From NCBI GenBank assembly GCA_027364875.1, contig DAHXON010000006.1, positions 1 to 48,742 on the forward strand: a stretch of DNA of 48,742 nucleotides. Direction: 5' to 3'. How positions within the stretch are numbered: position 1 is the stretch's first letter; every line of letters starts with the position of its first letter. The position numbers were made by a program, and so were the translations under genes. This DNA comes from Chloroflexota bacterium (GTDB lineage: Bacteria > Chloroflexota > Limnocylindria > Limnocylindrales > CSP1-4). The notes beneath the pieces are model-generated. The model was not told the origin of the DNA, did not search any database, and saw only the letters and a program-made list of their open reading frames with translations. Below, piece by piece: positions 8,179 to 31,396 of the stretch.

Positions 8179-9152
8179 GCCCACCACGCATCGGCGATGG
8201 CCGGCTCGGTCGGCATGATGGAACGAAGGAATGACACGGCTTTCGCGAACCCGTCATCAACGGACAGCAGCGCGTCCTCGTGCTCGATCGATAGTACGCC
8301 GTCATAACCCGCGAGCCGCAGCGCGCTCAAATACCGTCTCCAGTCCAATTCGGAATGGCCGTACCCCATGGTTCGGAAGATCCAGCTTCGGCGGCCGATC
8401 GCCGATAGCGGGGTAGTGTCGAGAACGCCATTGACCGATGCCGGGGGAAGGAGGGCAGTGTCCTTGGCATGCACGTGGAATAGCGTCCCGGCCGCCCCAA
8501 GGACGCCGATCGCTGACTCCAGATCGACACCTTGCCAGAAGAGATGACTCGGGTCCAGGTTGGCTCCGATCACCTCCCCTGACTCGCCGCAGGCATCGCG
8601 AAGACGCAGCAAGGTCGATGGGTTGTAGACGACGAAACCCGGGTGCATCTCGAACCCGAGGCGGACGTGATGCGCACTCGCGAACGAAGCGGCTTCGCGC
8701 CAGTATGGAACGACTTTCTCCTGCCATTGCCATTCGAGCACTTCGCCGTACTCGGTGGGCCACGCGCAAGTAACCCAGTTTGGATGGGTCGCCGTCTCGG
8801 AGTCGCCCGGGCAGCCACTGAACACATTCACGACCTCGACGCCAACGCGCTCCGCCAGCTCCACGGTTCGCAGGAACGTTTCGTGGCTCTCCCTGGCGAT
8901 AGCCGAGCGCGGGTGCAGGGGATTTCCCTGGCACGACAGGGCGCTGACGGTGAGCCGTCGCGTCTCGACGGCTCGGGCGAAGGCCGAGAGCTTCGTCGAG
9001 TCGGCCAGAAGCTCCGCGGGATTGCAGTGGGCATTTCCGGGGAAGTTGCCCGTCCCGATCTCGACCGCGTCCATGCCCGCTTCAGCCGCGCGGTCCAGCG
9101 CCGCCTCGAAGGGCATCCGGCCAAACAGGACCAAAAAGACACCGAGTTTCAT
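8175..9152 (-). CDS. Sugar phosphate isomerase/epimerase (AP endonuclease 2-type TIM barrel)
   Basis: This 325-residue cytoplasmic enzyme of the xylose isomerase-like TIM-barrel superfamily starts with the usual MKLGVFLVLFG. Family metal and base residues are visible: the E/H pair in GFEMHPGFVVYNP, the aspartate and histidine in ANLDPSHLFWQG, a histidine in FHVHAKD and a C-terminal glutamate in LSIEHEDALL. Members include IolE, IolI, IolH and lyases or hydratases acting on 3-keto sugars. The protein is longer than the common 270-290 residues because of insertions in the middle. A GGAGG ribosome binding site lies 5 bases before the ATG, and the stop overlaps the next gene by 4 bp. The exact reaction is unknown. 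Confidence 0.85.
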   Translation of the reverse strand: MKLGVFLVLFGRMPFEAALDRAAEAGMDAVEIGTGNFPGNAHCNPAELLADSTKLSAFARAVETRRLTVSALSCQGNPLHPRSAIARESHETFLRTVELAERVGVEVVNVFSGCPGDSETATHPNWVTCAWPTEYGEVLEWQWQEKVVPYWREAASFASAHHVRLGFEMHPGFVVYNPSTLLRLRDACGESGEVIGANLDPSHLFWQGVDLESAIGVLGAAGTLFHVHAKDTALLPPASVNGVLDTTPLSAIGRRSWIFRTMGYGHSELDWRRYLSALRLAGYDGVLSIEHEDALLSVDDGFAKAVSFLRSIMPTEPAIADAWWA

Positions 9153-9210
9153 TCGAACCTCCAGCCGGCCACCAATCCCTGGCCCGTCTCGGTGGGACCG
9201 CCGCTTGTGA

Positions 9211-10062
9211 TCAGATCCGTACGGAGGCGACTAGCGTCCGCATAGCCTCGAGGTTTTCGCGTGCGATGGCATCTGCGTCTTTGTCCAGCGTCGGAACCTC
9301 GACCACGAGGTAGCCGTCGAACTTGATCGCTTTGATGGCCTGCATCACTTCGTCAAACGGGACAATGCCGGGCGAGCCGACCGAGTTGGTGTCCGACCCG
9401 GGCGTGCCGCGCGGGCTCGTCCGGTTCTTGAAGTGGAACCTCGCGATCCTGTCGCCCAGCTCCGTTATCTCCTGAGCCGGGTTGCGACCTATCCAGGTGT
9501 TGTTGCCGACGTCGTAGTAGACACGACAGGCCCGCGACGCGACTTGATCGACCATTCGTCGGAGCTCGGCGGCGCCCAGCAGAAATGGCGTACAGACGTT
9601 CTCGAGTGCCAGGGTGATGCCATGCTCCTCAGCCAATCTGACGCACGGTTCCAGATTCCGAAGCGTGGTCTCCCACGCTTCGGAATCCGTTACGCCGGCT
9701 GGCTGATCCAGGGGCAGCAGAATGCAGTCAGCGCCCAGATCCTTGGCGAGGGGCACGGCGGCGAGGATGATCTCGACGCCGCGCTTGCTGTGAGCCTCGT
9801 CGCCACCCGATATCGGGTAATGCCAGAGCGCACCCAGGCAGATCGAACAGAAGGGAATGTTAGCGTCCTGCGAAGACCGCTTGAGCTCGTCGCGCTGAGC
9901 GGGCTGCAGCCTGTCGGGCAGGATTTGGAGACCAAGACCGCTCCCACCGAAATTGCCGATGTCCAGCTCGTAGGCGTCGTATCCGACGTCACGAGCCCGC
10001 CGCATCGCCTCAGTCAGGGGGTACTTCGTCTCCAGGAGCCATGAGTGCGCACCTAGCTTCAT
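9211..10062 (-). CDS. Sugar phosphate isomerase/epimerase (TIM barrel)
   Basis: This 283-residue enzyme belongs to the same superfamily as its downstream neighbour but is clearly a separate paralogue. The N-terminus MKLGAHSWLLETKYPL matches the family. Metal-site candidates are the glutamate in LALENVCTPF, the aspartate in YYDVGNNTW, the histidine in RFHFKNR and the C-terminal glutamate in LVVEVPTLD. The spacing follows the E-D-H-E pattern of the family. Its AGGTGA ribosome binding site overlaps the TAG stop of the upstream dehydrogenase, so the two are probably co-translated. The reaction is likely an epimerisation, isomerisation or elimination on a keto-sugar, inferred from neighbours rather than seen. 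Confidence 0.85.
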   Translation of the reverse strand: MKLGAHSWLLETKYPLTEAMRRARDVGYDAYELDIGNFGGSGLGLQILPDRLQPAQRDELKRSSQDANIPFCSICLGALWHYPISGGDEAHSKRGVEIILAAVPLAKDLGADCILLPLDQPAGVTDSEAWETTLRNLEPCVRLAEEHGITLALENVCTPFLLGAAELRRMVDQVASRACRVYYDVGNNTWIGRNPAQEITELGDRIARFHFKNRTSPRGTPGSDTNSVGSPGIVPFDEVMQAIKAIKFDGYLVVEVPTLDKDADAIARENLEAMRTLVASVRI

Positions 10063-10072
10063 CTCGCGTCAC

Positions 10073-11182
10073 CTAGAAAGTGGTATTGAGCGTTTCGACG
10101 CGGCCGTTCTGCGAGGACTCGACGGCCTTCTCGATGATCTCGATGACGTGCCGTGCATGCTCGCCACTGTTCAGCGGCTTGGTCCCGGCATGGATGCTTT
10201 CGACGAAGCTGCCTACGCCGTGGCCGATGTGCCAGCGGTGCGCTCCCCGTGCCGGGTACGGCTTGAACCATCCGCGCTGGTCGTACGCGAGCGGCTCCTG
10301 ATAGACCTGGAGCAGCGGCTCGCCTTCGTTGCGCGGCGCTTCGCCAGACCCCGAAACTACGACACCCTTGCTCCCGTAGAACTCCGCCCAGGGGCCCTGA
10401 GACGCGAGCATGCAATGCGAGGAATCGACCTGGGCGAAGGTTCCGTTGCCCCAGTCGAGCATCAGCAGCACGTTATCGTCGACGTCGCCGGTGATGGTGT
10501 AGGGGGTGAATCCCTCCTGCCACACGCTCGTCACGTGGCGCTCCGGGATGCACAAGCTCGAGAGCGCCACGACGCGCTTCGCGGGGCCAAGAACGCCCGT
10601 AACCGTATGGAGCGCGTAGACCCCAGTATCGAAGAGCGGACCGCCGCCCTCAGATCGCATGTGATACCAGGAGGAGTCGTAGTAGTGGCCGTGAAGGGTG
10701 CCGCCTTCATGGGAGCCGTGGACGCGAGCGAAGCACATGCGCCCAAGGCTTCCCTCGTCGTACAGCTTCTTCGTGAAGATAACCTGAGGATCCAACACGA
10801 TGGCCGGGGCCGCGGCCAACATGACGCCGACCTCGGCGGCCTTCCGCACGATCTTGTCCGCATCTTCTAGGGTCGTCGCCATCGGCTTCTCGCTGTAGAG
10901 ATGCTTGTGAGCCTCCAGCGCCGCCATATTGATTTCGGCATGAACCTTGTGTCGGGTTAGGTTGACCACGAGGTCGACTTCGTCGCAGGCCAGCAACTCA
11001 CGGTAGTCGCCGAATGCGTACTTGCCCCCGAACAAAGTCTGGGCTCGCTTGGCCCGCTCGAGGTCGACGTCACAGACCGCGACGATGCGTGCCTTGCCTG
11101 GATCGATCTCCGCCATCACCGGAAAGTAGAGCTTCAACGCGACGTCGCCAGTCCCGACGACTCCGATGCCCAACGGCTTCAC
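10073..11182 (-). CDS. Gfo/Idh/MocA-family oxidoreductase
   Basis: This is a 369-residue NAD(P)-dependent dehydrogenase. The Rossmann glycine motif GVVGTGDVA lies at the extreme N-terminus, the second strand ends in VAVCDVD, and the EKP motif appears in HLYSEKPMATT. An ATG at 11194 is in frame, but GGAGG at 11188-11192 lies 5 bases before a GTG at 11182, giving the start VKPLGIGVVG. I chose that start. It lies between the ABC permease and a TIM-barrel isomerase in the sugar operon. Its FDTGVYALHTVTG segment differs from the equivalent region of the paralogue at 6964-8178, so the two probably act at different steps, perhaps one oxidising the substrate and the other reducing a later keto intermediate. 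Confidence 0.87.
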   Translation of the reverse strand: MKPLGIGVVGTGDVALKLYFPVMAEIDPGKARIVAVCDVDLERAKRAQTLFGGKYAFGDYRELLACDEVDLVVNLTRHKVHAEINMAALEAHKHLYSEKPMATTLEDADKIVRKAAEVGVMLAAAPAIVLDPQVIFTKKLYDEGSLGRMCFARVHGSHEGGTLHGHYYDSSWYHMRSEGGGPLFDTGVYALHTVTGVLGPAKRVVALSSLCIPERHVTSVWQEGFTPYTITGDVDDNVLLMLDWGNGTFAQVDSSHCMLASQGPWAEFYGSKGVVVSGSGEAPRNEGEPLLQVYQEPLAYDQRGWFKPYPARGAHRWHIGHGVGSFVESIHAGTKPLNSGEHARHVIEIIEKAVESSQNGRVETLNTTF

Positions 11183-11214
11183 AGCAGCCTCCATGTGACG
11201 TGAGAAGTAGCTGC

Positions 11215-12099
11215 CTAGCCCTTGAGGCCAGACATCATCATGCCTTGAATGAAGTGGCGCCTGAACACTAGAAAAACAGCCAGAACCGGGACAATCGTTA
11301 GGGTGCTGGCCGCCATGGTCAGGTCATAGATTGGCCCAAACTGGGTTGACAACGAAACGATGGCAAGCGGCACCGTCTTGTTGGCGTCGCTGCTGATCAA
11401 GACGAGCGGCCAGAAGAGTTGGTCCCAGTTGTACAAGAAACTCAATATCGCCACTGCCGCGAGAGCCGGTTTGCTCATGGGCAAGACGATGCTCCGGAAT
11501 AGACCCCACTGGCCGAGGCCATCTACGCGACCAGCATCGAGATAGTCGTCTGGAATAGCGCTCATGTACTGTCGGCAGATGTAGATGGCGAACACATCGA
11601 TCGTGAACGGAATGACCAGGCCCCAGAGTTGGTCGACCGCACCGGCGGACCGGGCCATCAACAGCAGTGGGATTGCCAGAACCTCGAATGGCAGTGCCAT
11701 CGTTGCCAAGAAAGCTACGAAGATGAGGTCGCGGCCAGCGAACTTGACCTTCGCAAACACATATCCGAGCACAGCCGACGTAGCCACGACTGAGAGGGTG
11801 ATGCAGGCTGTGACCAGGATACTGTTCAGGATGTACTGGAGAAAGTGCATCTCCGTGAGCAGTCTGTCGAAGTTGGCGAGGGTTGGGGCCGCCGGAAGAA
11901 AGGTCGGCGGCTTCCTGAGGATCTCCGACGCTGGTTTGAACGCATTGAGGACCATCCACACGAACGGGACGACCATCACTAAACCACCCAGCCAGAGGAA
12001 GCCATGGCCGGCCGCTCGCGACGTGACCTTCGCCATCCTGGTGGTGTGTTTAGATTTAGGGATTGCACCTGGGGCGACATTCGTCGCGCGTCTCAACAT
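11215..12099 (-). CDS. Carbohydrate ABC transporter permease (MalG/CUT1 type)
   Basis: This inner-membrane permease of about 294 residues is one half of the channel for the importer encoded just upstream. Six hydrophobic segments are visible, starting with GFLWLGGLVMVVPFVWMVL. The ATPase-coupling EAA loop is recognisable in DYLDAGRVDGLGQWGLF and is followed by LPMSKPALAAVAI. The frame extends upstream to 12207, but the ATG at 12099 has a GGAGAG site that overlaps the TAG stop of the preceding permease, and it gives a normal family N-terminus. No ATP-binding protein is encoded in this operon, so a shared MsmK/UgpC-type ATPase elsewhere in the genome is presumably used. Confidence 0.9.
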   Translation of the reverse strand: MLRRATNVAPGAIPKSKHTTRMAKVTSRAAGHGFLWLGGLVMVVPFVWMVLNAFKPASEILRKPPTFLPAAPTLANFDRLLTEMHFLQYILNSILVTACITLSVVATSAVLGYVFAKVKFAGRDLIFVAFLATMALPFEVLAIPLLLMARSAGAVDQLWGLVIPFTIDVFAIYICRQYMSAIPDDYLDAGRVDGLGQWGLFRSIVLPMSKPALAAVAILSFLYNWDQLFWPLVLISSDANKTVPLAIVSLSTQFGPIYDLTMAASTLTIVPVLAVFLVFRRHFIQGMMMSGLKG

Positions 12100-12112
12100 G
12101 TCGGCAGCTCTC

Positions 12113-13030
12113 CTACATACTCCGCCGTCGGGCGACGCTGAGCTGAAGGACCATCGCGCCGGCAACAACAATGAACATGAGCATTGCCAAGGCGGCGGCG
12201 TATCCAAACCGGTTGTTCTGGAAGGCCTGGAAGAAGATATCCAGCGACCAGACGATCGTGCTGTTGACGGGACCCCCGGGGGTCCGAGAACCCGTGCCCG
12301 TCATTGCGAAGACCGGCGTGAACATCCTGAGCGTCTCGAGGCCCTGCATGACAAGGACCAGAATGAGTGTCGGTCGAAGCAATGGAAGGGTCACGTACCG
12401 CAGGCGGTGCCACGGTCCGGCGCCGTCGACCCCGGCGGCGTCATACAGCTCGGGAGGGATCGTCTGAAGACCCGCGAGCAGGATGATGACTGGGAAACCG
12501 AGAGTCTTCCAGCCCTCCATGAGGGCGACGGCAGGGAGCGCCGTCGTCGGGTTCTGCAAGTACGCGAGAGTGGGCAAGCCCACACTCCCCAGGATGAAGT
12601 TGAACAAGCCGTAGGCTGGGTGGTAAAGGAAGACGAAGACCACGGCCGAGGCGACGGTGGACGTTACCAGGGGCATGAAGTACAGGGTCAGGACCGTGTC
12701 ACGCGCGGTTCGGTTCTTGATCGAGTCGATGCCGACCGCGATTAGCAATGCCAGCGGGATCTGGATTGCGAGGAGCAAGATCATGTACTCGCCCGTGTTG
12801 AAGACGGCTTTGCGGAATACGGCATCCGCGGCAGCCGCCTGGTAGTTGGCGAGTCCTACGTATGCGGAGTTCCCCGCGGCTCCCGTCTGGACGCTGAGTG
12901 AGGCAAGGTAGGCGATCGGCAGGTAGCGGAGGACGATGATCCAGATGAGGGCCGGCACGAGCACGATGAAGACGAATGGGCCCCACCCGTGCCGGCCAAG
13001 GATTCGGCGAACGCGTCCGAAATTGCTCAT
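12113..13030 (-). CDS. Carbohydrate ABC transporter permease (MalF/UgpA type)
   Basis: This 305-residue inner-membrane permease is the first of two in the sugar importer. It has an N-terminal helix (FVFIVLVPALIWIIVLRYL) and five more hydrophobic segments. The EAA coupling loop reads ELYDAAGVDGAGPWHRLRYV and precedes LPLLRPTLILVLVM. In this family the MalF-like and MalG-like proteins pair to make the translocation pore, driven by a separate ATPase dimer. The gene follows the solute-binding protein gene and precedes the second permease by 13 bases. Its ribosome binding site is weak, which suits coupling to the upstream gene. Confidence 0.9.
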   Translation of the reverse strand: MSNFGRVRRILGRHGWGPFVFIVLVPALIWIIVLRYLPIAYLASLSVQTGAAGNSAYVGLANYQAAAADAVFRKAVFNTGEYMILLLAIQIPLALLIAVGIDSIKNRTARDTVLTLYFMPLVTSTVASAVVFVFLYHPAYGLFNFILGSVGLPTLAYLQNPTTALPAVALMEGWKTLGFPVIILLAGLQTIPPELYDAAGVDGAGPWHRLRYVTLPLLRPTLILVLVMQGLETLRMFTPVFAMTGTGSRTPGGPVNSTIVWSLDIFFQAFQNNRFGYAAALAMLMFIVVAGAMVLQLSVARRRSM

Positions 13031-13082
13031 CGGGACGGATCCAGCGTGTTGCAGGAAATCACGTCAGTGAACACGAGGCTCC

Positions 13083-14360
13083 TTACGAGCCAGCAACAAT
13101 CGGGTTGAGTTGGTCCTGTGCTGTCTTGAGTGCCGTCGGGATATCTGACTGCCCCAGGAGCACGCTCATGACCATGTCCGTAAGGAGCTTGTACTGCGGA
13201 TCCTGCGGACCGATGTAAAGGAGCGGGACCTGATCCTTCAGGAGCGGAAGCCACGGAGCCCAGCGCGGGTCTGTAGCGATCTTCGGATCGGTCCACAACG
13301 ATTTGAGAGCGGGGATCTCACCGGTCTGGAGAGCAGAAGCGAGCCGCTGCTCCGGCTTGCTGAGCCATCGAATGTAGTCCCAGGCCGCAGAGGCGTTCGG
13401 GGTGCTGGAAGGCACCATCCAAGCCCACACATTCGTGCCCCCGAAGGCCTCAGCGACCTGTCCGGGACTCGGCGGGATCTTGGCCCAACCCCACTGGAAC
13501 GTCGGAAAGTCGTGCTTCAGAACGGCCGTGTACCACGGCCCATAGGCGATCGAAGCCGCGGTTCCGGAGGCGATGCCCTCATAGTCAGCGAGCGAGGTGC
13601 TGTCGACCTTGTACTTGTTGAACATGTCCTGCATGATCTGCAGCGCCGCTTCGCCGCTCTTGTCGGCGATCTGGACGGACTTCTTGTCCGCGGAGTAGAA
13701 CGTCCCGCCGGATCGCAGGAAGTAGAGAAGGAACTGGGCCACTGGATCGCCACCGGCCATCTCGATCCCGGAGCGTTTGATCGTTCCGCCATCGGTGACA
13801 GTCAGCTTCTGGAGGTCCGTGATGTAGCTGCTCCACGAATCCCAAGTTGGCGTGACCCCGGCCGTCTTGAATGCGTCGACGTTGTAGAGAAGTAGCGGTC
13901 CAGCGTCGATGTTGACGTTGATCGGAACGCCGTAGTACTTGTTGCCGTTCTCAACTGGCGCCAGAGAAGCAGGATTTGTGTCGGCGAGAGCCGACGCGAA
14001 GTCTGCGGGAACTTCGGCGAGCTGGCCGCCCACTTTCTGCGGATATAGCCAGGACGCCACTCCCTGGATGATGTCGGGTTCCGAGCCTGACGCGAATGCT
14101 GCCACGATCTTGGCACCGTACTGGTCCCAGGGGACGTACGAGAGCTCGATCTTGACTCCGGTTTCCTTTTCGTAGGCTGCCGCGTTGGCCTCCGCGACCG
14201 CCTGGTAGTTGGGATCCGTGTGGACCCACATCGTGAGAGTCTTCGAAGATCCGCCGTTCCCTGATCCGGCCGTCGCGGGCGACCCGCCCGAGCACGCCGA
14301 TACCAGAGCGGCCGTCGCTATAGCAGCCGTGATCCCTCTGACGAACGACCTGTTTCGCAT
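13083..14360 (-). CDS. Extracellular sugar-binding lipoprotein (family 1 solute-binding protein)
   Basis: This 425-residue receptor belongs to a CUT1-type sugar importer. The N-terminus has a basic start, a hydrophobic stretch and the lipobox LVSAC with lipidated C23. A Ser/Gly-rich linker follows, then the mature domain begins with KTLTMWVHTDPN. Typical family features include an early AYEKETGVKIEL segment, a central GTAASIAYGPW segment and a C-terminal ASAAWDYIRWLSKPEQ. Lipid anchoring outside the membrane fits a monoderm cell. It is followed by two permeases and preceded by a TIM-barrel isomerase. An AGGAGG site lies 6 bases before the ATG. The ligand is not predictable, but a mono- or oligosaccharide is expected. 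Confidence 0.92.
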   Translation of the reverse strand: MRNRSFVRGITAAIATAALVSACSGGSPATAGSGNGGSSKTLTMWVHTDPNYQAVAEANAAAYEKETGVKIELSYVPWDQYGAKIVAAFASGSEPDIIQGVASWLYPQKVGGQLAEVPADFASALADTNPASLAPVENGNKYYGVPINVNIDAGPLLLYNVDAFKTAGVTPTWDSWSSYITDLQKLTVTDGGTIKRSGIEMAGGDPVAQFLLYFLRSGGTFYSADKKSVQIADKSGEAALQIMQDMFNKYKVDSTSLADYEGIASGTAASIAYGPWYTAVLKHDFPTFQWGWAKIPPSPGQVAEAFGGTNVWAWMVPSSTPNASAAWDYIRWLSKPEQRLASALQTGEIPALKSLWTDPKIATDPRWAPWLPLLKDQVPLLYIGPQDPQYKLLTDMVMSVLLGQSDIPTALKTAQDQLNPIVAGS

Positions 14361-14390
14361 TGGGTTCCTCCTGTCTCGGACTCGTCGCGG

Positions 14391-15332
14391 TTAGCGAGCA
14401 GCTGGCATCCCCATGGCAGCCTCCGCAGCCGCCAGCTCCCGCTGCATGTAGGCAAGGGCAAGGCGAACGCGACGGTCTGCCTCTCCTACACCCTGGTACT
14501 CGTGGCGCACGAGGGAAGGGCCACAGCCCTCATAGGCGATCGCTCCTTCGTACTTGATCTCGTACAGGGCGCGGAAGAAGGCCGGGTAGTTGACGGAAAT
14601 GACGCCTTCGCCCGTGTCCTCGTATATCTGCCGGTTGGGTGTTTCTTCGTAGCCGCCAAAATGCGACCACACTTCGAGTGGACCGACGTCCAGAATGGCC
14701 CGCCGGACACCCTCGTCGCTCTGGTCCGCGAGATGCGGCGCGTCGATGCATGCTCGGACGTTTGGAGACGCGATCTCGCGAACCATCGCCAGGGTGTCCT
14801 GGTATGTGTTCGTGACTGGCTTGTGATTTTGGAGCGCCAGGACTACTCCGTATTCCTCTGCCCAGCGGCTGGCTTCTTCGAGGCCCTGGCGGGCCCACTG
14901 CCACTGTTCAAACCAGGTGACGTCGTGCCACTTGTAGCTCTTGGCCAGCTCGTAGTAGGACTGGCCATCGCGAAGCGTCACCCCAGGCCATGCGGCGAAT
15001 ACGCGGACGACGGGTGCGCGCAGATCGGCGGCCAGACGGATGGTTTCGCGAAGCATCACCAATTGCGCTTCCCGCTGCTCCAGCACGGGGCTCGCGAGGT
15101 TGCTGTAGCCGGCGATGCAGCCGATCTCCACTCCATGGTCGGCCGCCAGTTGCCGGATCGCGCGCCGACGATCTCCGTCCAGATCGAGGGGCGACGCGAC
15201 CGGCCGCTTGGCGCCGATTTCTACCGCGTCAAACCCCATGTCCGCGACCCGAGCGAAGATCTCCTCCAGGGACAGTGGAAGCCCTTTATAGAACTGGCCG
15301 TTGTAGGTAACGGTGTACAGGGCAGTCTTCAT
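14391..15332 (-). CDS. Sugar phosphate isomerase/epimerase (TIM barrel)
   Basis: This 313-residue enzyme is the third TIM-barrel member of the operon and the first gene after the repressor. It starts MKTALYTVTYNGQFYKG. The usual first glutamate is replaced by glutamine in LALQNHKPVT, while the later aspartate/histidine pair (ACIDAPHLADQ), the histidine (VWSHFGGYEE) and the final glutamate (AYEGCGPS) are kept. LALQNH is a known variant in this superfamily, so this need not mean loss of function, but it points to different chemistry from the other two. A GAAGGAGG site lies about 11 bases before the ATG. The substrate is unknown and is presumably part of the sugar pathway of this operon. Confidence 0.84.
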   Translation of the reverse strand: MKTALYTVTYNGQFYKGLPLSLEEIFARVADMGFDAVEIGAKRPVASPLDLDGDRRRAIRQLAADHGVEIGCIAGYSNLASPVLEQREAQLVMLRETIRLAADLRAPVVRVFAAWPGVTLRDGQSYYELAKSYKWHDVTWFEQWQWARQGLEEASRWAEEYGVVLALQNHKPVTNTYQDTLAMVREIASPNVRACIDAPHLADQSDEGVRRAILDVGPLEVWSHFGGYEETPNRQIYEDTGEGVISVNYPAFFRALYEIKYEGAIAYEGCGPSLVRHEYQGVGEADRRVRLALAYMQRELAAAEAAMGMPAAR

Positions 15333-15398
15333 ACTAGGGTCGGACCTCCTTCAAGTTGAGTGGGCGGGATATCGATCAGCTGAGCGGACGGGGCACAG

Positions 15399-16664
15399 CT
15401 ATGCAGGGACGGACATCGTTGTGTTGCGAGCGCGGTCGAGAGTGTCGGTGAGGTTGGGCTCCGAGAAGAGTTCGTCGAGGACCATGGCGGCAGTCCCGAC
15501 GACGCCACCGCGCTCCCCGAGCGCGGAACTCGTCACCAGCAGATGACGCGTGGCGAGCGGCAATGAGCGCCGATATACGCTCTCGCGAATAGCGGCGAGG
15601 AACACGTCCCCGGCCCCGGCGACTCCGCCGCCGATGACGATGACCGAGGGATTGAGGAGGTTGACGACGCCGGCGAGCATGGTGCCGATATACCGGCCTG
15701 CGTTCTGAAGCATCTCCGTGCTGGCGGGATCGCCCCGCGACGCGGCGTCGGCGACGTCGGCTGCAGTCAGGAGTTCATTGCGTTGCAGAACTGACGCCAG
15801 TAGCGGACTTCGACCCGACCTGGCGGCGGCCTCGGCTTGCCGACCGATGGCAAACCCGCTGGCGATGGCCTCCAGGCAACCGGTGTTGCCGCATCGGCAC
15901 ACCACTGCGGGGTCGTTAACGACCTGAATGTGGCCAACGTCCCCAGCCGCGCCCTGAGCCCCTCGATGGAGCGATCCATCAGAGATGATCCCCGCCCCGA
16001 TCCCGGTTCCGATCTTGATAAAGACCACGTTGGCGTGGCCCCGGGCGAATTTCTCGCGCCATTCTCCAAGGGCAAGGACATTCACGTCGTTGTCCACCCA
16101 GACCGGCGCTCCGTATCGCTCCCGGAAATGCTCGCGAATGGGGTAGCCATCCCATCCGGGCATGATCGGTGGAGCGACCGGACGGCCCGTGGTGAACTCA
16201 ACGGGACCCGGCACCCCGATGCCGATCCCCCACAGGAGACCGGGGTCTACCGGGCACCGTTGATAAAGGCTCGTGAACAGCGCGTCGACCTCGCCAAGGA
16301 CGACTTCTGGCCCTTCGCCGATGGCGATCGGGACGGCGTCGCTGACAAGCTCTTTTCCCAGGAGATCGGTGATCCCGACGTGTGCCGTCGACGCACCGAG
16401 CGCGGCGACCAACAGGTGCCCGGCGGATGCCCGAAGCCGCAGCCGGCGAGGCGGTCGACCGCGGGCCTGCGACACCGTGCCGTCGGTTTCCAGCAGCCCG
16501 GCTGCCGCCAACTGGTAGATGCGTTCAGCGACCGCAGCCCTTCCGAGACCCGTCGCCCGAACGACGTCGGATTGCGAGGTCGCGCCGTCAAGGCGGATGG
16601 CCTCGAGGACTTTTGCGACCCCCGCGAACAGGACATTACTCTGGTTTGGAGCATTTGTGCTCAT
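15399..16664 (-). CDS. ROK-family transcriptional repressor
   Basis: This 421-residue regulator has an N-terminal winged helix (about 15-75) and a ROK sugar-kinase-like domain. The ROK part shows VWVDNDVNVLALGEW, the phosphate-binding stretch KIGTGIGAGIISDG and the zinc motif CRCGNTGCLE, all diagnostic of the family. The helix-turn-helix is in QSDVVRATGLGRAAVAERI. Such proteins (NagC, XylR, Mlc) release DNA when they bind a sugar. It is the first gene of the nine-gene operon, so it very likely controls that operon and itself. A 9-bp inverted repeat 33-56 bases upstream of its ATG (16698-16720) is a candidate operator. Confidence 0.9.
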   Translation of the reverse strand: MSTNAPNQSNVLFAGVAKVLEAIRLDGATSQSDVVRATGLGRAAVAERIYQLAAAGLLETDGTVSQARGRPPRRLRLRASAGHLLVAALGASTAHVGITDLLGKELVSDAVPIAIGEGPEVVLGEVDALFTSLYQRCPVDPGLLWGIGIGVPGPVEFTTGRPVAPPIMPGWDGYPIREHFRERYGAPVWVDNDVNVLALGEWREKFARGHANVVFIKIGTGIGAGIISDGSLHRGAQGAAGDVGHIQVVNDPAVVCRCGNTGCLEAIASGFAIGRQAEAAARSGRSPLLASVLQRNELLTAADVADAASRGDPASTEMLQNAGRYIGTMLAGVVNLLNPSVIVIGGGVAGAGDVFLAAIRESVYRRSLPLATRHLLVTSSALGERGGVVGTAAMVLDELFSEPNLTDTLDRARNTTMSVPA

Positions 16665-21172: not shown

Positions 21173-22189
21173 CTACTTGAACGCAACCGCGTTAGCCGGC
21201 GACCCAACGCCCTTCGGGGCATTGAACGGGGCGCTCGCGACGAAGCACGCGTACCGACCATCGAGCGCGCAGTCATCCGCGAGATCCTTGAGCCACCAGA
21301 GCTCCCCGAGGGCCATGCCAAGCTGCGCGATGAGAATCCGATGCAGGAAGCTCAGCGGCGGATACTCGGGCGCGAGATCGACCGGCCAGACCTCGACAGC
21401 GTGGTTGTCCGCGACGACCGCAGCCACGTGAGCGTTCCAGAGATACTCGACCACATCTTCGCTGTGTGCCAGGCCGGGCGAGCTCACAGGACGGCGGAGC
21501 TGGTGCCGCTCCTCCATCGATTTGCCCAAGTACCACTCGGCGAATCCTGTGTAGAGCAAGACGATGTCTCCCGGTTCGAACTCCACGTTCGCGAGCCGGC
21601 GAGCTCGCTCGAGGTCATCGACGCCGAAGGCTACCGACTCGCCGGGGTCGTATCCGGCGGTACCGGCGCTCCTGATCATGTCGAGCAGCACGCCTCGGCC
21701 CGCGATGCCATGCCAGCTCCAGTGCGCGATGGTGTTCCGGTCGCCGCGGATGATGTCCTGTGCCGTGGCGCCGTTGTAGTACGCGTTGATGTCGTAGCCA
21801 ACATGACCCAGGGAATCCCACTGGCTGCCAGCCTGCGTATAGAAGTTGTCGTAGAGGTCGTCGAAGCTGAAGCTCTCGGGCGGGTGCAGCACCGTATGCT
21901 GCGGCGGCGTTCTGACCGGCGACGTGCTCGGTTCGAACGCACCGATGGGAGCGTCGAGGGGGAAGCTCGCTCCCCTGACCACGAGCCTGGCAGCCCGAGC
22001 GATGCGCTCGGGCGTCATCAGGTTCACCAGACCGACGCTGTCCTCGGCCCCGAACAGGCCCCAGGCGGAACGGCCGCCGTGAGGCGCCGGGGGCAGATCG
22101 CTATATCTCGGGAGATCCGTCGCCCACGAGCGGCGGATAGCGGCAACGGCCGATACGAGACGGTCAGCGCTGGACGCGTCCGGAGCCAT
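21173..22189 (-). CDS. Cyclase-family (kynurenine formamidase-like) metal hydrolase
   Basis: This enzyme of about 338 residues belongs to the PF04199 cyclase/formamidase family, in the subgroup where the metal motif reads QWDSLGHVGYD followed by YYNG instead of HxGTHxD. Other family marks are GRGVLLDMI, EPGDIVLLYTGF and VVADNHAVEVWP near the C-terminus. The family hydrolyses amides or lactones such as N-formylkynurenine and isatin. Here it ends an operon with KDG kinase and KDPG aldolase, so ring opening of a sugar lactone is possible but unproven. The ATG at 22189 overlaps the kinase gene by 26 bases. An upstream ATG at 22216 would add nine residues. Confidence 0.8.
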   Translation of the reverse strand: MAPDASSADRLVSAVAAIRRSWATDLPRYSDLPPAPHGGRSAWGLFGAEDSVGLVNLMTPERIARAARLVVRGASFPLDAPIGAFEPSTSPVRTPPQHTVLHPPESFSFDDLYDNFYTQAGSQWDSLGHVGYDINAYYNGATAQDIIRGDRNTIAHWSWHGIAGRGVLLDMIRSAGTAGYDPGESVAFGVDDLERARRLANVEFEPGDIVLLYTGFAEWYLGKSMEERHQLRRPVSSPGLAHSEDVVEYLWNAHVAAVVADNHAVEVWPVDLAPEYPPLSFLHRILIAQLGMALGELWWLKDLADDCALDGRYACFVASAPFNAPKGVGSPANAVAFK

Positions 22190-23201
22190 CGCCTGCCAGC
22201 AACGCTTCGACTTCACCCAAAGAGATCAGGTTGAAGTCGCCCGGGATCGAGTGCTTGAGGCACGACGCCGCGGCCGCGAACTCCACGCACGCCTGCCTGT
22301 CCATGCCGCGCAGCAGTCCGTAGATCAGGCCAGCCGTGAAGCTGTCCCCGCCACCGACTCGATCGACTATGGGGTTGATCTCGTAGGAGCGGCTAAGGTA
22401 GTGGTCCTTGCCATCGTAGAGGAGCCCCGCCCAACCGTTGATCGAGGCGGAGATGCTCCGGCGCAGCGAAGTGGCCACGTACCGGAGGCCAAACGTCGCG
22501 GCAAGCTGCTCGGCGACCGCCTTGTATGCGCCGACGACGAGGTCGCCCCGGTTGACGTCGCTGCCCTCGGCCTTGATGCCGAAGACCTTGGCCGCATCCT
22601 CCTCATTGCCGAGCAGAACGTCCACGTACTCCATTAGCCCGGTCATGACCCGGTGCGCCTCGTCCGTGGTCCAAAGCTTGGCCCGGTAGTTGAGGTCGCA
22701 GCTGACCGTCACGCCTCGCGAGCGAGCGGTCTTGAGGCCGTCGAGAAGGACCGCCTGAACCTTGGGTCCCAGCGCCGGCGCCGTGCCCGAGAAGTGGAAC
22801 CAGTCGGCGCCGTCGAGTATGGCGTCCCAGTCGAACTCTGCCGGGCTGGCGTCGCGAATCGCGGTGTGGTTGCGGTCGTAGATGATCTTGGCCCCTCGCT
22901 GGGCCGCGCCCGTTTCGAGATACATGATCCCGAGGTGGTCGCCACCGCGAGCGACGAAATCCGTGTTCACCCCGAACCGGCGGACGTAGTTGACGCAGGC
23001 CTGCCCAAGCTCGTGGCCCGGGACGCGCGAGACGGCGTAGGTGGCGAAGCCAAGACCGGCCAGCATGACGGCGACGTTCGCCTCGGCGCCCGTGTAGCCG
23101 ACTTTGAACTCGCTCGCCTGGACGAACCGCTCGTGGCCCGGCGGGGTCAGGCGCATCATCAGCTCGCCAAACCCCACCATCTTGGGTCTGCCGCCGATCA
23201 T
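22164..23201 (-). CDS. kdgK: PfkB-family sugar kinase, probable 2-keto-3-deoxygluconate kinase
   Basis: This is a 345-residue ribokinase-fold kinase. The N-terminal substrate motif reads FKVGYTGAEANVAVMLAGLG, and DVLLGNEEDA is a typical mid-protein signature. The catalytic motif DRVGGGDSFTAGLIYG carries the base aspartate. The RLTPPG segment near the start and KLWTTDEA are common in 2-dehydro-3-deoxygluconokinases. With the KDPG aldolase gene overlapping it by 4 bp upstream, the pair would convert 2-keto-3-deoxygluconate to its 6-phosphate and then to pyruvate and glyceraldehyde 3-phosphate. The ATG at 23201 has an AGGGGGA site, and an internal ATG seven codons later is also possible. Confidence 0.87.
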   Translation of the reverse strand: MIGGRPKMVGFGELMMRLTPPGHERFVQASEFKVGYTGAEANVAVMLAGLGFATYAVSRVPGHELGQACVNYVRRFGVNTDFVARGGDHLGIMYLETGAAQRGAKIIYDRNHTAIRDASPAEFDWDAILDGADWFHFSGTAPALGPKVQAVLLDGLKTARSRGVTVSCDLNYRAKLWTTDEAHRVMTGLMEYVDVLLGNEEDAAKVFGIKAEGSDVNRGDLVVGAYKAVAEQLAATFGLRYVATSLRRSISASINGWAGLLYDGKDHYLSRSYEINPIVDRVGGGDSFTAGLIYGLLRGMDRQACVEFAAAASCLKHSIPGDFNLISLGEVEALLAGDGSGRVQR

Positions 23202-23857
23202 CGGGCTGTCCCCCTGGCCTCGTCTACAACAGCCCGGAAGTCGCGGGCGTTCTTTGTGATGGCGGCCCAGTCGCCGCGGTTCATAGCTGCGGTGTCGACG
23301 AGGGCCTTGCCGATCCCGACGGCTACGGCGCCGGCCTTGATGTAGGCGGGCGTGGTCTCGCGGTCGACGTTGCCGGTCGGCAGGAGCTTCACCGATGGAA
23401 ACGGGCCCTTGAGATCCGCGAAGTACTCGGGCGTGGCGACCCGCCCGGGGAAGAGCTTGATCACATCAGCCCCGGCGCTCCACGCGGTCACGATCTCCGT
23501 GGGCGTGAGGCAGCCCGGGATGACGCCAACGCCGTACAGGTGGCAGATCGAGACGACTTCGGCGTCGAAGGCGGGCGACACGACGACTCCCGCCCCGGCG
23601 CTGATGGCCTGGCGGGCAGTCGTGACATCGAGAACTGTGCCGGCGCCAACGATGACTTCGTCGCCCATCTCGCGGACGGTCGACTCGATGGCGTTCAGGG
23701 CGTTGGGCACGGTCATCGTGATCTCGACGATCTTCACGCCGCCGGCAACGAGCGCTCGCGCCAGGCTCGTGAGCTCGGCCGGCCTGTCGATTCGCACGAC
23801 CGCCACGACACCCGTTTCAAGCAAGGTCTGGACGACCTGCTCGCGTGAACGACTCAT
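23198..23857 (-). CDS. eda: KDPG/KHG aldolase
   Basis: This 219-residue class I aldolase cleaves 2-keto-3-deoxy-6-phosphogluconate into pyruvate and glyceraldehyde 3-phosphate. The general base E45 is in VEITMTVP, the Schiff-base lysine K134 is in DVIKLFPG, and the GAGTVLD and PGCLTPTE motifs are intact. Full length and all key residues suggest an active enzyme, in contrast to the aldolase-like fusion at 24779-25747 in the same series. AAGGAG lies 8 bases before the ATG, and the stop overlaps the kinase start by 4 bp, so the two proteins are probably made together. Confidence 0.92.
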   Translation of the reverse strand: MSRSREQVVQTLLETGVVAVVRIDRPAELTSLARALVAGGVKIVEITMTVPNALNAIESTVREMGDEVIVGAGTVLDVTTARQAISAGAGVVVSPAFDAEVVSICHLYGVGVIPGCLTPTEIVTAWSAGADVIKLFPGRVATPEYFADLKGPFPSVKLLPTGNVDRETTPAYIKAGAVAVGIGKALVDTAAMNRGDWAAITKNARDFRAVVDEARGTAR

Positions 23858-23915: not shown

Positions 23916-24677
23916 CTACCAGATGGTCCAACCCCCGTCGATGACGATCATCTGGCCGGTGATGTAGTCGGAAGCGGAGCTGGCGAGGAAGGCGAACGTG
24001 CCCTTGAGGTCGTCGACCGTCGCGTACCGGCCGAGCGGGATGCGCGGCAGGTACTCGGCCTCGTGCTCTGGCGTATGGATCCAGGACGCGGTCATGGCGG
24101 TGTCCACGTAGCCCGGGGCGAGGGCGTTGACGCGGACGCCGAAGCGGGCCAGCTCCACGGCGGCGCTGCGGGTGTACTGGAGCAGGCCGCCCTTGCTGAT
24201 GGCATACATGGTCTTCTGGTCCAGCCCGACGAACGATCCGATCGAGCAGAGATTTATGACCTTGCCGTAGCCCTTGTCCACCATCTGACGGATGAGCGTC
24301 TGGGTCAGAGCGAAGACACCCGCTACGTTGACGCTCCAGATGAAGTCCAGGTCGTCCGGGGTTGCCTCCAGAAGAGGCATTCGGCGCTGGACGCCGACGC
24401 TGTTCACCAGGATGTCGACGCCACCCATCGATTTGGTCAGGTCGGCCAGCCGGTCGATGTCGGCCTTCTTGCGTGTATCGCCGCACAGAGTCGTCACCTG
24501 GCCCACCGGAGCGAGCTCGGCCGCGGCGGACGTCAGGCCGTCTTCGGTGATGTCGAACAGCACGACTCGCGCGCCCAAGCGGAGCAGGACGTCGGCGGCG
24601 CTCCGTCCGATGGACCCTGCCCCGCCGCCGATGACGGCGAGCCGTCCAGTGAGAGAGAACAGATCGTGGCCCTGCAT
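23916..24677 (-). CDS. SDR-family dehydrogenase
   Basis: This 253-residue classical short-chain dehydrogenase has the cofactor loop VIGGGAGSIG (about 15-24), NSVGV, the catalytic serine S145 in NLCSIGS, the YxxxK pair Y158/K162 in YAISKGG, and the C-terminal QMIVIDGGWTIW. An acidic residue at the end of the second strand (LFDITED) favours NAD(H). It lies between the aldolase-like fusion and KDPG aldolase and may oxidise or reduce a sugar acid such as a gluconate or 5-ketogluconate. The frame extends to 24782, but GGGGAG before the ATG at 24677 and the family N-terminus decide this start. Confidence 0.87.
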   Translation of the reverse strand: MQGHDLFSLTGRLAVIGGGAGSIGRSAADVLLRLGARVVLFDITEDGLTSAAAELAPVGQVTTLCGDTRKKADIDRLADLTKSMGGVDILVNSVGVQRRMPLLEATPDDLDFIWSVNVAGVFALTQTLIRQMVDKGYGKVINLCSIGSFVGLDQKTMYAISKGGLLQYTRSAAVELARFGVRVNALAPGYVDTAMTASWIHTPEHEAEYLPRIPLGRYATVDDLKGTFAFLASSASDYITGQMIVIDGGWTIW

Positions 24678-24778
24678 CGCGACTACTCCCCTTGTGGCTG
24701 GCTGACCTCCACGGCCACGGACGGGCGGTGGCGAAACGTCCTTGCGTTTGGCGGCGCGGGCCGCATGCAGCGGCGCGT

Positions 24779-25747
24779 TCATCGGCCCACCTGCAGCAAG
24801 TGGAGCGCGAATCCGGCGACTTCGTCCGCCAGGTAGATCGCCTTCAGGCTCCCGTCGGGGGCCAGCTTCTCGCTTTCGGGAACGAATTCCACGCCTCTAC
24901 GGGAGAGATACGACATCGCCCGGGAGATGTTCGTCGTGGCGATGGCGATGTGCCCCATCTGGCCTCGCGACTGCCCCTTCATGACCTCGATGCCAGTGCT
25001 GGCGAAGTTGGAGCTGTTGCCCATCTGGACGTCGAAGCCGAACAGGAAGCCGAAGCGCCGGGCGATCGAATCGGCGTCGGCCGAGTCCGCGCTGGACACG
25101 CCGATGTGCACGACCTCGAACCCGTGGACGGCTCGAACGGTGTCCTGTGCCAGAGCCGTGACGGCCGACCAGTTGCGCGCGCGGACCAAATCCGGCCTCG
25201 TCATCCACGATCCGCTCAAGGCCAGGACCTGGCGATCGGCTAGGTACTGGCACACCATCGAGGGCTCGATGCCGCCGGCCGGCCAGAAGCGAACCTGCGG
25301 GAAGTCGACCTCGAGGGCTTTGAGGAGGGCGATGCCGCCGGCCACTTCCGCTGGCGAGAACCGAACGACGTCGAGCCCGAACGTCACGGCGCGCATGACA
25401 TCGGAAGGCATGACGCATCCGGGCACAAGCGTCACACCCCGAGCGCGCGCCCGATCCAGGATGGCCTCGTCGAGACCCGGGCTCGAGACGAAGCGGGCGC
25501 CCGCATCCACGGCTGCGTCGACCTGCTGAGCATTGGTCACGTCCGCAGCCCCGACGGTAGCGTCTGGCGCCGACGCCGACGCGGCACGGATGGCGTCGAC
25601 CCCCGCCGGAGTCCGGACGCTGAATTCGGCCACCGGGAGTCCGCCGTCTGAGAGAGCGGCCAACAGCGCCGCTCCGTCCGTGGCTGCGTCAGCCACTACT
25701 TCGGGGACTACGCCTGTGATGCCGATGTCCTCGAGAATTGAGTTCAT
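24779..25747 (-). CDS. KDPG aldolase-like domain fused to a VOC domain; Schiff-base lysine replaced
   Basis: This 322-residue two-domain protein has residues 1-205 with the fold and order of motifs of KDPG/KHG aldolase: AEFSVRTPAG with the general base E41 kept, VTLVPGCVMPSD, DVVRFSPAE and FWPAGGIEPS. The lysine that forms the Schiff base in DVV-K-F-P is arginine here (R129, codon CGG), and the usual GAGT phosphate/substrate loop reads GAAD. Residues about 211-320 form a vicinal oxygen chelate (glyoxalase-like) domain with candidate metal ligands H214 and H266. Ordinary class I aldolase chemistry seems unlikely. The VOC half suggests a metal-dependent step on a keto acid. The ATG at 25747 has an AGAGGGAA site. 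Aldolase/VOC fusions are known, but I do not know one with this substitution. Confidence 0.83.
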   Translation of the reverse strand: MNSILEDIGITGVVPEVVADAATDGAALLAALSDGGLPVAEFSVRTPAGVDAIRAASASAPDATVGAADVTNAQQVDAAVDAGARFVSSPGLDEAILDRARARGVTLVPGCVMPSDVMRAVTFGLDVVRFSPAEVAGGIALLKALEVDFPQVRFWPAGGIEPSMVCQYLADRQVLALSGSWMTRPDLVRARNWSAVTALAQDTVRAVHGFEVVHIGVSSADSADADSIARRFGFLFGFDVQMGNSSNFASTGIEVMKGQSRGQMGHIAIATTNISRAMSYLSRRGVEFVPESEKLAPDGSLKAIYLADEVAGFALHLLQVGR

Positions 25748-25812
25748 TGATTCCCTCTGTCGAGCTGTAGGTCGGGCCAACAGTCGAGTGCTCTGTCCGT
25801 AACGGCGATAGA

Positions 25813-28790: not shown

Positions 28791-29489
28791 CTAGAAATAG
28801 ACCGAGTTGAGAGCGGCCTTGTCGCTGAGGTCGATGTCCACGGCGACGCCGTCGCGCAGCAAGACGAGGCGATCGCAGAGCTTCGAGAGGATCGTCACGT
28901 TCTGGTCGACCCAGAGAACGGAGGTTCCGAGCTCCCGGCAGCTATCGATGCTTACCTTCGTGATCGAGACGACCGCCGTGGGCGACAGCCCAAGGCTGAG
29001 CTCGTCGAAGAGGATGATTCGGGGCGTCCCGATCAACCCACGGGCAACCGCGACGAGCTGTTGCTGTCCCCCGCTGAGCAACCCCGCCTTGCGGTGGAGC
29101 ATCGGCTCGATGGCCGGCAGCATGGCGACGATGCGAGCCCGCGACGATTCGTAGTCGCGCACCCCGGCGCCGATTGCTCCGATCTTCAGATTCTCGTCGA
29201 CCGTGAGGTTGGCGAACAGCCGTCTGCCCTCGGGTACGTGCACTATTCCCTGCGAGACGGAGCGAACCGGGTCATGCTTGAGCGGGATTCCCTCGAAGGA
29301 GAGAGTCTGGGCCGAGCGGTTGACCACTCCGGAGATGGCGCGCAGCAGCGTCGTCTTGCCCGCGCCGTTTGGCCCGGCAACTCCCACGATCTCCCCAGGC
29401 GCCACGGTCAGGTTTAGACCGTGCAGCACGGTTGCCTTCCCGTAGCCGGCGTACAGTCCCTCGATCTGAAGCCCAACGGATCCTGCCAT
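28791..29489 (-). CDS. livF: Branched-chain-type ABC transporter ATPase (LivF-like)
   Basis: This 232-residue ATP-binding subunit of a HAAT-family importer has Walker A GPNGAGKTTL, the signature LSGGQQQLVAVARGL and Walker B IILFDELSLGLSP, followed by a switch-region VLWVDQN where many ABC proteins have a histidine. LivF proteins often have glutamine there, so this is normal. The start codon overlaps the stop of the LivMG fusion (ATGA). It pairs with the ATPase half of that fusion. HAAT systems import branched-chain amino acids, amides, urea or carboxylates. The downstream genes suggest a sugar acid or other carboxylate here. Confidence 0.92.
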   Translation of the reverse strand: MAGSVGLQIEGLYAGYGKATVLHGLNLTVAPGEIVGVAGPNGAGKTTLLRAISGVVNRSAQTLSFEGIPLKHDPVRSVSQGIVHVPEGRRLFANLTVDENLKIGAIGAGVRDYESSRARIVAMLPAIEPMLHRKAGLLSGGQQQLVAVARGLIGTPRIILFDELSLGLSPTAVVSITKVSIDSCRELGTSVLWVDQNVTILSKLCDRLVLLRDGVAVDIDLSDKAALNSVYF

Positions 29490-31396
29490 CAACCCACCCC
29501 CAGCGCGAGCGTGTTCATTGCCGAACTGTTTGAGGCGAGTGCGTCGGGCTCGGCCTCGACACCCACGAATGTCTGAGCGATGACCGGGCGGGCAAGGACT
29601 TCAGCCGGCTCCCCGTTGCCGATGACCTTCCCGTAGTCGAGCACGGTCATCTCGTCGGCGATGTCGAGAATGAACCCGATGTGATGGGAGATGACCATCA
29701 TCGTGAGCCCGAAGCGCTCGTGAACGTCCTTCAGGACTCGGGCGAGAGCATCCGTCTCGGCGGCGGAAAGCCCCGCGGTAGGCTCGTCGAGCAACAGGAC
29801 TTGCCCTCGCCCTACCAGTCCTCGCGCGAGCTCGACCCGCTTCTGCTCGCTCAGGTCGAGGCCCCGACCCATCAGACTGCGCCGTGACCGTGGGACGCCC
29901 ACGGCGTCGAGAGCCCAGTTCGCCTGGGCCTCCAGCGCTCGCTCTCGCCGACCGGTGGCGACGCGACCAAGCAGGTCGACCCAGAACGAGCTTCGCTCGT
30001 CGGCGTCGAGGCCGAGCTTGACGTTATCGAGCACGTCCAGGTCCGGCACGATGGCCGGCGTCTGGAAGGTTCGAATCACCCCACGCTTGCGGATCGCATG
30101 TGCCGCGAGTCCCTTGGTGCTGGCGCCGTCAAGCCGGATGTCACCCTTGGTCGCCGAGTACAGCCCGGATACGGCGTTGAGCAGCGTGGTCTTGCCGGCG
30201 CCGTTCGGGCCGATAATCGCGTGGATGCTCCCCCGCTGGACCTTGATCGAGACCTCGTCGAGGGCGACGAAGTCGCCGAACTGGACATGCAGGTCGTCGA
30301 TCTCGAGCGTCGGGCGATCCCCGGCTTCGGCCGCGCGGAAGACCTCTCTCCCGCTCGGGGCCGCCGAGACGGCGGCGGGCTCAGCTTCCGGGTCCGACGC
30401 CGCCGAGTCGATCGCCGACTTCGGTTGCGGTACGAGTCGGTGCACCCAGCCCGTGATCTTGGTCCAGGCTTTCTGTGCGAGACCGTAGAACCCCTCAGGA
30501 AGGAGGATCAGGAAGATGAGCAGCATCGCCGCGAAGATGACCGCCGAAATGCGGCCTTCGCGCAGGAAGTATCCAGGGACGACGGTTAGGAGGATCGCGC
30601 CGAGGATTGGCCCGCCGATCGTGCCGGAGCCACCGACGACCATCATCGCGAATATGTTGATCGATTGATTGCTCGTGAAGCCGTCAGGCGACAGGTAGCC
30701 GACGACACCCGAATAGAGGACGCCCGCGATCGCGCCGAGGAGGCTGCAATAGACGAACGCGAATAGCTTGACCCGCTTGACCTTCACGCCTGAAGCCGCC
30801 GCAACCGCTTCGTTGCTCTTGAGCAGCCTGAGTGCGCGCCCGGTCTGAGACGCCGTCACGTTGGACGTGACGATCACTGACAGCATGAGAACGGCGCCGG
30901 AGACGACCATGAGCAGGCGCGGGTCCGATCCGACCACCTCGAAAGCCGGCACGAGCATGCCGTTCGCACCGCCAAAGAAGTCCGCGAGGCTGTCTCCCAT
31001 CAGGATCGTGTAGACCACGTACCCGAAAAAGAGCGTCGAGACAGCTAGACCGAATATCCGTAATCGCAGAACAATGCTTCCCAGGATCATCGATATGATC
31101 GCCACGACGACGAGGCCCAGAATGGTCGCGACTACGAGAGGTAGCGCGAGTTGAACTCGCATCGCGGTCACGAGATAGGCGCCCATCGCAACGAATGCCG
31201 CCTGTCCGAATGAAGCCTGGCCCGAGTAGCCGACCAGGAGGTCGAGCCCGACCGCAGCCACCGCCCATGCGGAAGCCGCTACAAGCGTGTACTGCATTGA
31301 AGTGTCAAGCGGGAGCGTGCTGCCGGCGACGGTCAATCCACCGGCAATGACAAGACTCGCCTTTACGGTCTTGCTCTTGGCGTCACCGGCGATCAC
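29489..31396 (-). CDS. LivM-LivG fusion: ABC permease joined to ATPase
   Basis: This 635-residue protein contains two subunits that are usually separate. Residues about 14-310 form the LivM-type permease with eight to ten hydrophobic segments and the family motif LVGYSGQASFGQAAFVAMGAY at its start. A Pro/Ala-rich linker (about 322-360) joins it to a LivG-type ATPase with Walker A GPNGAGKTT (396-404), the signature LDLSEQKRVELAR, Walker B VLLLDEPTAGL (533-543) and histidines H571/H572 at the H-loop. The fusion fixes the permease to ATPase ratio. Such fusions occur in several high-GC lineages. The start is a GTG at 31396 preceded by GAGGCAGC. Confidence 0.9.
   Translation of the reverse strand: MIAGDAKSKTVKASLVIAGGLTVAGSTLPLDTSMQYTLVAASAWAVAAVGLDLLVGYSGQASFGQAAFVAMGAYLVTAMRVQLALPLVVATILGLVVVAIISMILGSIVLRLRIFGLAVSTLFFGYVVYTILMGDSLADFFGGANGMLVPAFEVVGSDPRLLMVVSGAVLMLSVIVTSNVTASQTGRALRLLKSNEAVAAASGVKVKRVKLFAFVYCSLLGAIAGVLYSGVVGYLSPDGFTSNQSINIFAMMVVGGSGTIGGPILGAILLTVVPGYFLREGRISAVIFAAMLLIFLILLPEGFYGLAQKAWTKITGWVHRLVPQPKSAIDSAASDPEAEPAAVSAAPSGREVFRAAEAGDRPTLEIDDLHVQFGDFVALDEVSIKVQRGSIHAIIGPNGAGKTTLLNAVSGLYSATKGDIRLDGASTKGLAAHAIRKRGVIRTFQTPAIVPDLDVLDNVKLGLDADERSSFWVDLLGRVATGRRERALEAQANWALDAVGVPRSRRSLMGRGLDLSEQKRVELARGLVGRGQVLLLDEPTAGLSAAETDALARVLKDVHERFGLTMMVISHHIGFILDIADEMTVLDYGKVIGNGEPAEVLARPVIAQTFVGVEAEPDALASNSSAMNTLALGVG

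Follow-up and report, generated by a model that had tools for sequence, protein, structure and literature searches.

The stretch of DNA analysed here (the window, 48,742 nucleotides) carries a gene in which a KDPG-aldolase-like half is joined to a VOC half (Table 1). A sequence-only reading had recognised this fusion, and the identification holds with the qualification that the gene lies on the minus strand. The same reading described an intact frame with a good ribosome site; all 322 codons are indeed open, and a suitably placed GAGGG precedes the ATG. Residues 12–199 of the aldolase half match PF01081 with 171.5 bits (1.9e-50), the protein scores 183 bits against TIGR01182 (cut-off 156.05), and a model of the aldolase half aligns to 4e38_A with a TM score of 0.92, normalised by target. 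By fold and by sequence family the protein is a member of the PF01081 class I KDPG/KHG aldolases. The C-terminal 116 residues, called the VOC half here, are VOC-like. The Pfam families Glyoxalase and Glyoxalase_4 are weakly matched by the VOC half of most relatives, and a profile search connects the VOC half to methylmalonyl-CoA epimerase (3rmu, E 8e-4), with a weak match to glyoxalase I as well. Methylmalonyl-CoA epimerases also rank first in Foldseek with a low-confidence model of the VOC half, whose mean pLDDT of 56.9 is too weak to judge geometry.

Table 1. Genes, domains and residues of the aldolase–VOC locus, in window coordinates
Feature	Positions	Strand	Basis or remark
Aldolase–VOC fusion gene, 322 aa	24779..25747	-	ORF intact, ATG at 25747
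KDPG-aldolase-like half, residues 1–206	25130..25747	-	PF01081; model matches KDPG aldolases
VOC half, residues 207–322	24782..25129	-	Weak Pfam, profile and fold matches
GAGGG, likely ribosome-binding site	25753..25757	-	Sequence; 5 nt upstream of the fusion's ATG
Asp69, codon GAC, at E. coli Thr73 position	25541..25543	-	Thr in 41/41 homologues
Arg129, codon CGG, at Schiff-base lysine position (E. coli K133)	25361..25363	-	Lys in 41/41 fusion homologues
Ser131 at E. coli Phe135 position	25355..25357	-	Alignment of fusions
Ala157 at E. coli Thr161 position	25277..25279	-	Alignment of fusions
His214, putative VOC metal ligand	25106..25108	-	Invariant, 42/42
Glu254, putative VOC metal ligand	24986..24988	-	Invariant, 42/42
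His266, putative VOC metal ligand	24950..24952	-	41/42
His316, putative VOC metal ligand	24800..24802	-	41/42
SDR oxidoreductase, between fusion and second aldolase	23916..24782	-
Stand-alone KDPG/KHG aldolase: lysine (DVIKLFPG), GAGT, PTG	23198..23857	-
2-keto-3-deoxygluconate (KDG) kinase-type PfkB kinase	22164..23201	-

The fusion was compared with 41 other full-length aldolase–VOC fusions. A named Clostridiales MAG supplied one of them and the class to which that genome belongs a further 36; three came from elsewhere in the phylum, outside the family of the window genome, and one (L024) from within that family. Both domains lie in one frame and homology extends over the full length. Identity of the window fusion to 32 of the others, measured over the whole protein, was 33–58%; the highest value was that to L024, its sole same-family relative, with which it is also paired in the tree. 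The distribution of the fusion is patchy. In the class of the Clostridiales relative, 37 of the 291 genomes sampled carried it, and across 177 genomes of the window genome's own class it occurred only in the window genome and one other (G064), being absent from the other genomes of the genus. Searches for further fusions in samples of two other classes of the phylum returned only the three already found, and no closer relative of the window fusion was found in viral, plasmid and phage collections.

The genes at the locus run in the order fusion, SDR oxidoreductase, stand-alone aldolase, KDG kinase and putative cyclase. Upstream of this run are branched-chain-type ABC transporter and dehydrogenase genes, and a divergent GntR-family regulator and an SMP-30/gluconolactonase gene lie near it. 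The stand-alone aldolase had been described as a normal KDPG aldolase two genes away. Its position, lysine, GAGT and PTG bear this out; it departs from the E. coli type, however, in having EITMT in place of the E..R motif. It is 29% identical to the fusion. At 33 of the 41 other fusions the adjoining gene is a homologue of the window's KDG kinase; in the window the kinase belongs to the same gene run, with the SDR and stand-alone aldolase genes standing between it and the fusion. Among the neighbours of 20 fusion loci there were five matches to KduI, six to SDR and three to UxaC. These associations with KDG kinase homologues, KduI, SDR and UxaC therefore place the fusion in the degradation of uronates or sugar acids by way of KDG and KDPG. 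A general role of the VOC half as a replacement for KduI is unsupported, as KduI genes themselves occur near fusions. The window KDG kinase gives better matches to the kinases that accompany Clostridia fusions (down to 2e-128) than to the one beside the same-family fusion (L024:440-1534; 1.4e-90), which suggests that the operon may be a mosaic.

Residues of the aldolase half were assigned by alignment to E. coli Eda, whose numbering equals the window residue plus 4 past a one-residue gap near residue 12. In Eda the catalytic residue is Lys133, and Glu45, Arg49, Thr73, Pro94 and Phe135 form the substrate site (PMC5334617); G162, G163 and S184 form the phosphoryl site, and T161 bridges the pyruvate and aldehyde sites (PMC3962226). 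The window fusion shares with Eda the fold and the equivalents of E45, R49, P94, G162, G163 and S184 (E41, R45, P90, G158, G159 and S180). It differs from Eda in the fused VOC domain and in having R, D, S and A at the positions of K133, T73, F135 and T161 (K129R, T69D, F131S and T157A), so that the substrate site is retained in its Glu, Arg and Pro and altered at its Thr and Phe. The alignment upholds the earlier description of CGG (Arg129) at the catalytic lysine site, GAAD in place of GAGT, and a conserved E41. A relocated lysine was looked for in the barrel and none was found: the sole lysine of residues 1–206 is K143, which lies in the helix after strand 6, and the barrel thus contains no lysine able to form an imine. 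On the aligned sequence the catalytic lysine is absent, and because the class I mechanism needs this residue the aldolase half is probably inactive for class I chemistry. The E. coli K133Q/T161K enzyme (PDB 1fwr) likewise lacks the strand-6 Schiff-base lysine, but this laboratory double mutant carries a lysine at position 161, where the window fusion has alanine and no substitute lysine.

The sequence-only reading took the arginine as a sign of a new reaction on a keto sugar acid, and proposed asking whether Arg is conserved together with the VOC fusion. It is not. Lys129, Thr69, Gly68, Phe131, Thr157 and Gly178 are present in all 41 other fusions and all are changed in the window copy, and the 75 fusions and solo aldolases with a residue at that site have lysine without exception. 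No second arginine copy was found, either among the fusions or in 177 genomes of the class. When the 177 genomes of the class and 171 genomes of the phylum were searched with a codon pattern for RF.PAE..GG, the other matches were not aldolases. These results do not support a conserved arginine subfamily, and with it the proposal that such a conserved arginine site carries out a new reaction loses its support; lysine in the homologues is what the earlier reading had named as refuting it. Lysines are rare in this GC-rich lineage (the aldolase half of L024 has two in all, and the next-lowest fusions nine or more), so arginine is the mutationally favoured replacement for lysine and need not have been chosen for its chemistry. 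Arg129 by itself gives no argument for new chemistry.

The pocket changes could nevertheless be read as a pocket rebuilt for other 2-keto acid chemistry, such as that of a metal- or arginine-assisted lyase, isomerase or hydratase. Most of the changed near-invariant columns sit at the C-terminal ends of barrel strands, E16, D69 and R129 bring new charges close to the retained E41 and R45, and P90, G158, G159 and S180 are kept as well. Relaxed constraint, however, also strikes pocket residues first, the arginine is the expected substitution, and no second protein with the same residue set was found. We regard a rebuilt pocket as distinctly unlikely. A specific version, in which the barrel has switched from lysine (class I) chemistry to arginine-plus-carboxylate chemistry, possibly metal-dependent and acting with the VOC centre on a keto sugar acid, seems to us highly improbable.

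The two halves of the window fusion have changed unevenly. Near-invariant columns (37 in the aldolase half and 11 in the VOC half) were scored for departures by leave-one-out counting. The window fusion departs from 10 of the 37 aldolase columns (V16E, T43S, G68A, T69D, V97L, K129R, F131S, T157A, N164M and G178S) and from none of the 11 VOC columns. No other fusion exceeded 4 departures in the aldolase half, and most had 0. Since the split from L024 the window branch measures 1.02 against 0.24 for L024 in the aldolase-half tree, and 0.34 against 0.45 in the VOC-half tree. Relative-rate tests gave 24 versus 7 (p = 0.003) for the aldolase half and 3 versus 7 (p = 0.34) for the VOC half, and a column bootstrap agreed with a faster aldolase half. 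The contrast between the halves in these counts was significant (Fisher p = 0.017). At stricter consensus cut-offs the difference between the halves was not significant (Fisher p = 0.15 and 0.28) because the counts are small. Constraint on the VOC half is read here from one copy, one branch and 11 near-invariant columns.

The genome is a 208-contig assembly of about 90% completeness, and an assembly or sequencing artefact might be suspected. Several barrel positions that are otherwise invariant changed together with K129R, and the codons behind both K to R (AAG in the nearest relative, CGG here) and T to D (ACG there, GAC here) differ by two bases; these features indicate more than chance or a sequencing slip. 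With many independent codon changes in an open frame of normal third-position GC, an artefact is scarcely credible. Another explanation is that the gene is redundant and on its way out, the stand-alone aldolase having made it dispensable and the VOC half being unchanged by chance. The absence of the fusion from the other genomes of the genus, and from all but one of the other genomes of the class, shows that it is generally dispensable, and the genome encodes second and third lysine-bearing aldolases. Yet the long branch has accumulated no indels, the frame is open, the structural Gly and Pro columns are kept, and no VOC column is changed. A dying gene is therefore unlikely, and the earlier view that this is not a decayed gene stands, only the aldolase half being fast.

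The four putative ligands of the VOC half, H214, E254, H266 and H316, are all present in the window fusion, and each occurs in at least 40 of the 41 homologues. The half thus has conserved His/Glu residues as expected of a VOC metalloenzyme, the ligand role being assigned from position, and the suggestion that it could supply metal-based chemistry is plausible. It is predicted to be a working metalloenzyme. Judged by what is typical of the family, its reaction might be a proton transfer assisted by the metal, with a KDG/KDPG-pathway compound as substrate. Methylmalonyl-CoA epimerase and glyoxalase I, which are VOC proton-transfer enzymes and the best profile and fold matches of this half, have His/Glu at ligand-like places; the window VOC half differs from them in its H, E, H, H set, its weak sequence similarity and its fusion to an aldolase.

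Our preferred reading, which we hold with somewhat better than even confidence, is that the window fusion is a separation-of-function descendant of an ordinary Clostridia-type KDPG aldolase–VOC fusion. The aldolase half would no longer form a pyruvate imine or split KDPG and would stay folded, serving as a scaffold that might still bind phosphorylated sugar acids, since E41, R45, G158, G159 and S180 remain. The VOC metal centre would be the working part, carrying out an epimerase- or isomerase-type proton transfer on a KDG/KDPG-pathway compound. KDPG splitting would fall to the stand-alone aldolase two genes downstream, beside the KDG kinase, and selection on the fused aldolase would be relaxed as a consequence. 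The retained phosphate-site residues, and the fact that KDPG aldolases are trimers, would also suit a silent partner that binds sugar-acid phosphate or hetero-oligomerises with an active aldolase and regulates it. Mixed trimers are unlikely at the level of identity between the fusion and the neighbouring aldolase, and regulation is without direct support; we consider a silent partner very unlikely.

The nearest known counterparts of the window fusion are the fusions of Clostridia and some members of the same phylum (L001, L024, L038-L040, L044-L072 and L074-L080). These have in common with the window copy the two-domain layout and length, the VOC ligand residues, and the link to KDG kinase and uronate/KDG genes. 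The window copy has lost the Schiff-base lysine, GAGT, FFP and PTGG, all of which are retained throughout the other 41. We found no papers on an aldolase–VOC fusion or a lysine-less KDPG aldolase, and the open-access literature yielded no function for the VOC half that these fusions carry. Pipelines will name the window fusion an active KDPG aldolase, because it passes the curated PF01081 and TIGR01182 cut-offs despite the missing lysine; judged from the sequence, that annotation is probably an error. The window fusion could help to reveal the function of the metal-binding-type VOC half. Together with another fusion, L080, which shows the opposite loss, it provides a matched pair for probing the role of the VOC half in KDG/KDPG metabolism.

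In L080 (L080:992-1951, plus strand) the aldolase lysine and GT motif are kept and two VOC ligands are replaced (H266Q and H316R), a reverse loss that counts in favour of the separation-of-function reading; the branch leading to its VOC half is very long. Neither NCBIfam nor Pfam has a curated family dedicated to the VOC half found in the common lysine-bearing fusions (L001, L044-L072). Elsewhere in the window, the branched-chain-type ABC permease and ATPase at 29489-31396 (minus strand) are apparently fused in one 635-aa frame, with other subunits adjoining. A second sugar cluster at 8175-16664 (minus strand) encodes three xylose-isomerase-like TIM-barrel proteins, a GFO/IDH/MocA oxidoreductase, an ABC sugar transporter and a ROK-family protein.
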